NCBI GenBank assembly: GCA_030614715.1
Contig: JAUWTM010000008.1
Span: 1 to 58,810 of the forward strand
Source: Planctomycetota bacterium
GTDB taxonomy: Bacteria > JAJVIF01 > JAPKYR01
Direction: 5' to 3'
DNA: 58,810 bases
Shown here: positions 15,066-15,926 of the stretch, one piece after another
How the letters are laid out: every line of letters begins with the position of its first letter
Position numbering within the stretch: the first letter of the stretch is position 1
Translations under genes and position numbers: made by a program
The notes under the pieces: model-generated
What the model was told of the DNA's origin: nothing
What the model saw: only the letters and a program-made list of their open reading frames with translations
Database searches by the model: none

Positions 15066-15926
15066 TCAACCACCAAGGATGAACGCTTTCAGCCAGTTCG
15101 TCAATCCGATTATCATGATCACTACCGCCAGTGTGATCGTAATTTTCCATTCACTTTTCGTAAGCGACAGGTTTCTCCAGTTTCCGATGAGGAATAGTCC
15201 GCAGATGAAAGGTAGCGTGGGTATCGGGGTTTCAAAAAACAGGACAACCCCGATTGCGATGGCGAGTCCACCCAGCACTAGGAAGAAAGCTTTCCAGACC
15301 GATAACCCGAAACGTCTGCTTGCAGCGAGAAAGAGAGCGATGAAAACAAGGTCGCCGAATCCAAACAGTGGCGTCATGTACCCCTCACCCGGTTGCGGCC
15401 AGCTGAGAATCATGAAACCTAGAAACGGCGGCGGCTGCCATGTACCGGTGTAGACCTGTCGCTGGGCGTGTTCTACAACCTGCTCGCCTACCGACCTGCT
15501 CGGTCCCTGCAGAACGCTCCACACATCGACCATGGCGCCAAGAATACAGACCGGTATCAGGTGCCCGACTTTTTCGAGCTCTCCCGCAAGCCAGTTTCCA
15601 AGCGTGTAGGTTCCGACAAGCAGCATGACCGTGTTGACAGGATGCCAGAATCGCCAGCATAGTCCGGACCTGACAAGCATTGCCGTGACAAGCCACCAGG
15701 CAACTGCCGCAATAACTATTACGATCGCGGTTTTACGTACCGGTATCACCGTAGACCATTCGACAGCAATAAGTACCGTCAGGGGTATACCGATAAGTAA
15801 AATGGCGTACATGGCAGGTTCGGGAGGGATATCCCTGCGATACGTCAACCAGATTGAAATGAGATAGAGAAGGGACCAGGTGAGGGTGAAAGGCAGCAGT
15901 TTACTACGACGAGACTTATCGCTCAC
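15066..15926 (-). CDS. Presenilin-like GxGD intramembrane aspartyl protease
   Basis: 286 residues with about nine hydrophobic segments. Three presenilin signatures occur in order: a membrane Asp134 in [11 protein letters not shown] (presenilin has YD followed by a similar helix and a Gly-Pro turn), Asp192 in GFGDLVF (GxGD) and PTLP at 236-239 (presenilin PALP). The piece after Asp134, [15 protein letters not shown], lines up with human presenilin [11 protein letters not shown]. The two aspartates are only 58 residues apart, like compact archaeal homologues without the cytosolic loop. Start is GTG 15926, overlapping the upstream stop as GTGA with GGAGGTGGGG before it. Family assignment is mine from motifs; function as a protease is inferred. 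Substrate unknown; the coupled exoprotein upstream is one candidate. Confidence 0.72.
   Translation of the reverse strand: [286 protein letters not shown]

Follow-up and report, generated by a model that had tools for sequence, protein, structure and literature searches.

A bacterial protein family related to presenilin and SPP, with the conserved residues of intramembrane aspartyl proteases

Presenilin is a protease known from Alzheimer's disease, and presenilin-type proteases have been studied as eukaryotic and archaeal enzymes. A gene in a Planctomycetota contig (the window, meaning the whole stretch of 58,810 nucleotides that was analysed) raises the question of whether bacteria encode proteases of this kind, and which way round they would sit in the membrane. 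The gene lies on the minus strand at 15066..15926, so the ORF, coordinates and strand of the preliminary description of this DNA hold, and it has a GTG start codon at 15924-15926 and a stop codon at 15066-15068; a further GTG upstream, at 15953, is a possible alternative start. Its product is a polytopic protein of 286 amino acids, numbered here from the GTG start as residue 1, while alignment numbers are one lower, the first residue being omitted there. Three motifs follow one another on the minus strand in the order originally proposed: the first aspartate motif, Asp1 ([12 protein letters not shown]; 15495..15530), with the codon of Asp134 at 15525-15527 and in predicted TM5; the GxGD motif GFGD (15351..15362), with the codon of the second aspartate, Asp192, at 15351-15353 and in predicted TM6; and the PAL-like motif PTLP (residues 236-239; 15210..15221). 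The two aspartates are 58 residues apart, as had been stated.

Single-sequence comparisons were rejected as insufficient evidence of kinship with presenilin. The window protein matches the Pfam model PF01080 at E 0.015 and 14.5 bits against a cut-off of 34.3, which is the level of noise, because 10 of 97 other bacterial genomes scanned as a control contain a PF01080 match at E <=0.01. It reaches no Pfam or NCBIfam cut-off (PF01080, PF04258 and PF06550 included), an NCBIfam scan returned no match, and phmmer against the PDB gave chance matches only (an Abi protein at E 0.051). When the 34 members of our alignment A4 were scanned singly, PF01080 was matched by nine (best E 0.0025) and PF04258 by three (best 0.079); other matches included EccD in one member at 0.0028, nearly as good as the best PF01080 value, and MerC, Bax1-I and Anthrone_oxy in one member each at 0.02-0.06, none of which was judged significant. 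The family is unnamed in the protein libraries searched (Pfam and NCBIfam).

Profiles built from several members, by comparison, single out presenilin. Against the PDB, a profile of 7 sequences (A1) placed presenilin-1 at the top with E 0.0088, one of 15 sequences (A3) gave 6e-4, and that of all 34 (A4) matched presenilin-2 at 2.5e-6, presenilin-1 at 3.3e-6 and SPPL2A at 1.1e-4 (profile positions 12-252). All nine A4 matches at E <=0.01 are presenilin or SPPL2A, the first unrelated protein appearing at 0.28. A profile of 21 sequences from which the window's clade was left out (A6) behaved in the same way, with nine of nine matches to presenilin or SPPL2A and a best value of 3.4e-6, so that similarity to the A22 superfamily was found with both A4 and A6. 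The significant similarity falls mostly in the stretch from GxGD to PAL; the Asp1 helix is in register with Asp257 of presenilin-1 ([22 protein letters not shown]) at no more than 4.5 bits, and few alignment columns are common to the family and eukaryotic presenilins. A likeness to presenilin in the helix after Asp1 ([26 protein letters not shown]) had been remarked on from the sequence alone. It does lie in the stretch where the profile alignments pair Asp1 with Asp257; the stretch by itself is not significant (<=4.5 bits), and the G-P pair of the window's clade stands two residues closer to Asp1 than that of presenilin-1.

The conserved positions were read from an alignment of the window protein with 39 other recovered bacterial sequences, including two fragments from one genome, without using presenilin in the reading. 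Among the columns filled in at least 36 rows, four are invariant (40/40) and no other column is: Asp133, Gly188, Asp191 and Pro235 in alignment numbering. These are Asp1, the first glycine of GxGD, Asp2 and the proline of PxLP, which are the catalytic positions of presenilin, and because all four are retained in every sequence the motif pattern exceeds chance. Around Asp1, the aspartate itself is present in 40/40 sequences and the serine and glycine of the motif in 37/40 each. The second glycine of GxGD is G in 32 sequences, A in five, T in two and S in one, giving a full GxGD in 32/40, among them the GFGD of the window, and G..D in all 40. The PAL motif near the C-terminus has its proline in 40/40, alanine in 32/40 and leucine or isoleucine in 39/40, the window protein reading PTLP. 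In an excerpt of PMC2947513, YD is named as a signature of the presenilin/SPP superfamily; a tyrosine precedes Asp1 in one bacterial sequence of 40 (L045), and the others have V, A, M, L, F or S. The distance from Asp2 to the proline is 44 residues in 33/34 A4 members and 49 in the remaining one (L032), whereas Asp1 and Asp2 are separated by anything between 41 and 78 residues in the family. Both aspartates are retained in three divergent sequences (L044, L045 and L046), whose GxGD motif reads GFAD or GPAD and whose PALP reads PALV; they may form a separate subfamily.

A family gene is present in all five genomes scanned from the window's phylum, in at least 16 of 386 sampled bacterial genomes and, in an even draw from a larger group representing the phylum of one relative, L016, in at least 21 of 282 genomes; the last two counts are lower bounds, the best six or eight candidates per genome having been scored. 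L016 is recorded as a Deltaproteobacteria MAG, and its phylum is probably Myxococcota. A profile search of genome contigs gave five loci, in MAGs labelled bacterium, Planctomycetota and Deltaproteobacteria. Run on the 386-genome sample, the A4 profile found 19 genomes, three of them weak additions (G319, G134 and G074). G134 and G074 were dropped, their alignments lacking the motifs. The G319 genome (1.4 Mb) contains a 214-aa frame that runs from near base 1 of its contig (L130, plus strand) and carries the motifs DIVS...GKHLPNRKMAE, GMGD and PAAPAV; it scored 24.2 bits with A4 in an unfiltered search, gave no match in a filtered one, and was left out of the conservation alignment. We regard it, on its motifs, as a probable distant member, which brings the sample tally to 16 sure and one probable of 386 genomes. 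By eye, its Asp1 region resembles the Asp1 motif of the archaeal presenilin homologue PSH. No relatives were found among the viral contigs searched, and none of the window protein at E 1 among the plasmids searched.

The predicted helix layout sets the family apart from the canonical one, in which nine helices carry the aspartates in TM6 and TM7 and PAL comes before TM9. Family-averaged hydropathy has nine peaks, with Asp1 in the fifth, Asp2 in the sixth and PxLP in the eighth (228-246; the loop counts took TM8 as 236-250), and one more peak follows, an extra predicted helix past PAL (TM9) that appears in the hydropathy of both A4 and A6 and corresponds to 15069..15164 on the minus strand of the window. 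This layout is based on hydropathy and charge, and a trained predictor or a structure could alter it. In 34/34 A4 members the predicted inner loops are richer in lysine and arginine than the predicted outer ones, whether or not the termini are counted. This pattern predicts nine helices with an inside N-terminus, the loop between Asp1 and Asp2 and the PxLP end both being exposed on the outer side. On these charges, the active site is predicted to face opposite to that of presenilin, as in SPP. According to an excerpt of PMC7768045, SPP and the SPPLs are reversed relative to presenilins and cleave type II proteins; an SPP-like orientation of the bacterial family would predict type II substrates, with the N-terminus inside.

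A fusion protein in another genome, G132, bears on the same point. Its 1134-aa frame (L043:7302-10706, minus strand) joins a presenilin-like module, with GVSD for GxGD, to HAMP and a class III nucleotide cyclase. Strong further hydropathy peaks lie at 556-574, 584-602 and 848-866 and a weaker one (1.63) at 522-540, which we assume to be part of a soluble domain; with the weak peak set aside, a module that ended on the outside would, by helix count, leave HAMP and the cyclase inside. The same genome also encodes a second, stand-alone copy with GLGD (L042).

The preliminary description had called the window protein a presenilin-type A22 member. A relationship to the presenilin/SPP proteases is supported by the PDB profile searches, and that much of the claim we retain; the full A22 label is too strong, because Pfam cut-offs are not reached, 39/40 sequences lack the YD tyrosine, the helices are shifted in their layout, and the protein is predicted to face the opposite way from presenilin.

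The gene neighbourhoods offer several hints as to function. In the window, the upstream gene (15923..17266, minus strand) encodes a possible partner, a protein whose N-terminus resembles a signal peptide and which matches FG-GAP repeats. The TGA of that gene overlaps the GTG start as GTGA at 15923-15926, so translation of the two genes is probably coupled. A BLAST-related upstream neighbour also occurs in L030 and L033 and in none of the other listed loci; the L033 gene reaches no Pfam cut-off. No universal neighbour was found across the family loci, in which neighbouring genes were called by simple ORF choices that are unreliable in GC-rich genomes. In three genomes (G019, G166 and G305) a related gene lies 4-6 bases downstream of the putative protease gene. 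The downstream genes L035:9857-11101 (plus strand), L036:8221-9465 (minus) and L038:7681-8895 (minus) are related to one another and possibly encode a substrate; of the three products, that of L035 was scanned and is a GAF-GGDEF protein with, by eye, a membrane anchor. In a further subgroup the family gene precedes SMC (L102 and L104-L107) or FtsY (L103), and in L032 it stands between Lnt on the upstream side and a putative lipoprotein on the downstream side. Putative lipoproteins of small size, similar by eye and with no match in Pfam, follow the gene in L032 (10876-11448, plus strand) and in L033 (8390-8920, minus strand). Such neighbourhoods allow roles in signalling or in signal-peptide handling and prove neither; SppA is encoded in all five genomes scanned from the window's phylum, so signal-peptide removal by the presenilin-like protein would be partly redundant. 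The window also contains a type IV pilus cluster (1786-13064, minus strand) with three prepilin-methylation-motif proteins, two T2SSE (PilT-like) ATPases, a T2SSF (PilC-like) protein and a prepilin peptidase A24 gene at 6050-7048 on the minus strand (A24_N_bact, 3.2e-30). Two distinct GxGD protease families are thus encoded about 8 kb apart.

Homology and conservation are established by the profiles and alignments, and from the sequences we think it likely that its members are relatives of presenilin and SPP that act as intramembrane aspartyl proteases and have an SPP-like orientation. Asp134 in TM5 and Asp192 in TM6 would be buried in the membrane and would activate a water molecule to cleave a peptide bond in a substrate helix, which may be admitted beside the PxLP loop. 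Candidate substrates would be type II, that is, leftover signal peptides or the single-helix anchors of signalling proteins; the adjacent membrane-anchored GAF-GGDEF proteins and the one fused cyclase would fit a signalling role. It is unlikely, though worth weighing, that the family are active proteases in the presenilin orientation, with the catalytic loop in the cytoplasm and type I substrates. That the sub-threshold Pfam matches lie nearer presenilins (PF01080, 9/34) than SPP (PF04258, 3/34) would suit such an arrangement, but the positive charges favour an inside N-terminus with five helices ahead of the loop in 34/34 members, and the helix count of the G132 fusion agrees with that model. 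We find it quite improbable that the proteins are non-cleaving sensors or scaffolds of presenilin fold, using the aspartates for proton or ion passage, for instance, and giving their output via neighbouring cyclases. Such a role could draw on the fusion to HAMP and a class III cyclase, on the adjacency of GGDEF genes in three genomes and on the A, T or S that replaces the second glycine of GxGD in 8/40 sequences. Pseudoproteases, however, usually lose a catalytic residue, and here both aspartates, the first glycine of GxGD and the PAL proline are kept in 40/40.

Two further explanations would remove the family from the presenilin lineage altogether. From the single-sequence Pfam value of 0.015, and from the genome scans with A4, in which the motif-less membrane proteins of G134 and G074 reach about 22 bits, not far short of the 30 bits for presenilin, one could argue that the likeness arose by chance in a polytopic membrane protein of another lineage. 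We consider it very improbable: the E value falls from 0.0088 to 2.5e-6 with growing membership of the profile, every PDB match at E <=0.01 is presenilin or SPPL2A, and an independent clade repeats the result. Still less credible is the idea of a GxGD protease that resembles prepilin peptidases (A24) and works for the type IV pilus genes, which is suggested by the pilus genes and prepilin-like proteins at 1.8-13 kb of the window. The window has its own canonical A24 peptidase at 6050-7048, so the presenilin-like gene is probably not that enzyme, and at E 1 the 11 Pfam families that one or more of the 34 members match include no A24 model.

We call this, by homology and its conserved active site, a putative new family of presenilin-type intramembrane aspartyl proteases. 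In a literature search that covered few subscription papers, no published description of such a bacterial family turned up; the single reference to a presenilin homologue from bacteria occurs in a lipid-binding study (excerpt of PMC8396450), and an excerpt of PMC7768045 refers to a paper from 2000 about the GxGD motif of polytopic aspartyl proteases in bacteria. Database annotations of bacterial members may exist. We take the homologue of the lipid-binding study to be the archaeal PSH, and the proteases of the 2000 paper are presumably prepilin peptidases. Raut et al. 2021 reportedly dealt with the archaeal roots of such proteases. A family of compact bacterial proteins whose layout is shifted and whose orientation is probably reversed would provide new, simple models of gamma-secretase chemistry, would open up bacterial signalling by presenilin-type proteases and would bear on the origin of presenilin.

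On that origin, a bolder reading is that presenilins reached eukaryotes not only via archaea, that the nearest prokaryotic relative of eukaryotic presenilins is the bacterial family and in particular its 21 members in the L016 phylum (probably Myxococcota), and that some members are wired to nucleotide second-messenger signalling, a link drawn from gene neighbourhood and in one case from fusion. Taken as a whole we hold this to be rather unlikely. It draws on the residues after Asp1, where presenilin-1 has P at +7, G at +9 and P at +10: among the 21 A6 members, G at +9 occurs in 20 (A in L075), P at +7 in 18, P at +10 in 12, and G at +9 together with P at +10 in 11. Unlike presenilin-1, the other 13 A4 members, which are the window's clade, all have G at +7. 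It draws also on the A6 profile, which finds presenilins and SPPL2A and not the archaeal PSH.

Among known systems, archaeal PSH/MCMJR1 (4hyc; PF06550), presented as the first such enzyme shown outside eukaryotes in an excerpt of PMC2947513, shares with the bacterial proteins its size, D-x-x-S-V, GxGD and, with the window protein, the spacing of 58 residues between aspartates. That the spacings are equal had been noted correctly; it is a coincidence and not a meaningful likeness, because the spacing ranges from 41 to 78 within the bacterial family. PSH differs in its helix layout, in its weak HHalign scores and in PF06550, which has no match in the window's own genome and none above the cut-off in the 386 bacterial genomes. 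4hyc is absent from the PDB matches of the A4 and A6 profiles at E 10; HHalign against 4hyc alone aligned the wrong stretch, and against two archaeal sequences (4hyc and the Natrinema plasmid protein L059, a relative of PSH) it gave P 0.048 and a probability of 1%. A profile with so few archaeal rows, one or two, is a poor one, so this is weak evidence either way. The Natrinema gene (L059:2335-4029, plus strand) lies beside SRP19 and Gar1 genes, a hint of a link to signal-peptide handling. Our hydropathy script found nine peaks in PSH, with Asp162 just past the sixth, Asp220 just ahead of the seventh and the PAL-like GLPP preceding the last; an excerpt of PMC12067869 places the aspartates in TM6 and TM7.

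Type IV prepilin peptidases (A24) share the class of GxGD-type membrane aspartyl proteases and differ in having no sequence match to the bacterial family, the window carrying a separate A24 gene. SPP and SPPL (PF04258, A22B) share GxGD, PAL and the predicted orientation of the active site, with SPPL2A a significant profile match, whereas PF04258 itself matches 3/34 members at a best E of 0.079. In presenilins (PSEN1/PSEN2, PF01080, MEROPS A22A) the two aspartates, GxGD and PALP follow one another as they do in the bacterial proteins. In contrast to presenilins, the bacterial family is without the tyrosine before Asp1 (39/40) and the large loop, has its aspartates in predicted TM5 and TM6, and is predicted to carry an extra helix after PAL and to lie in the membrane the opposite way round.
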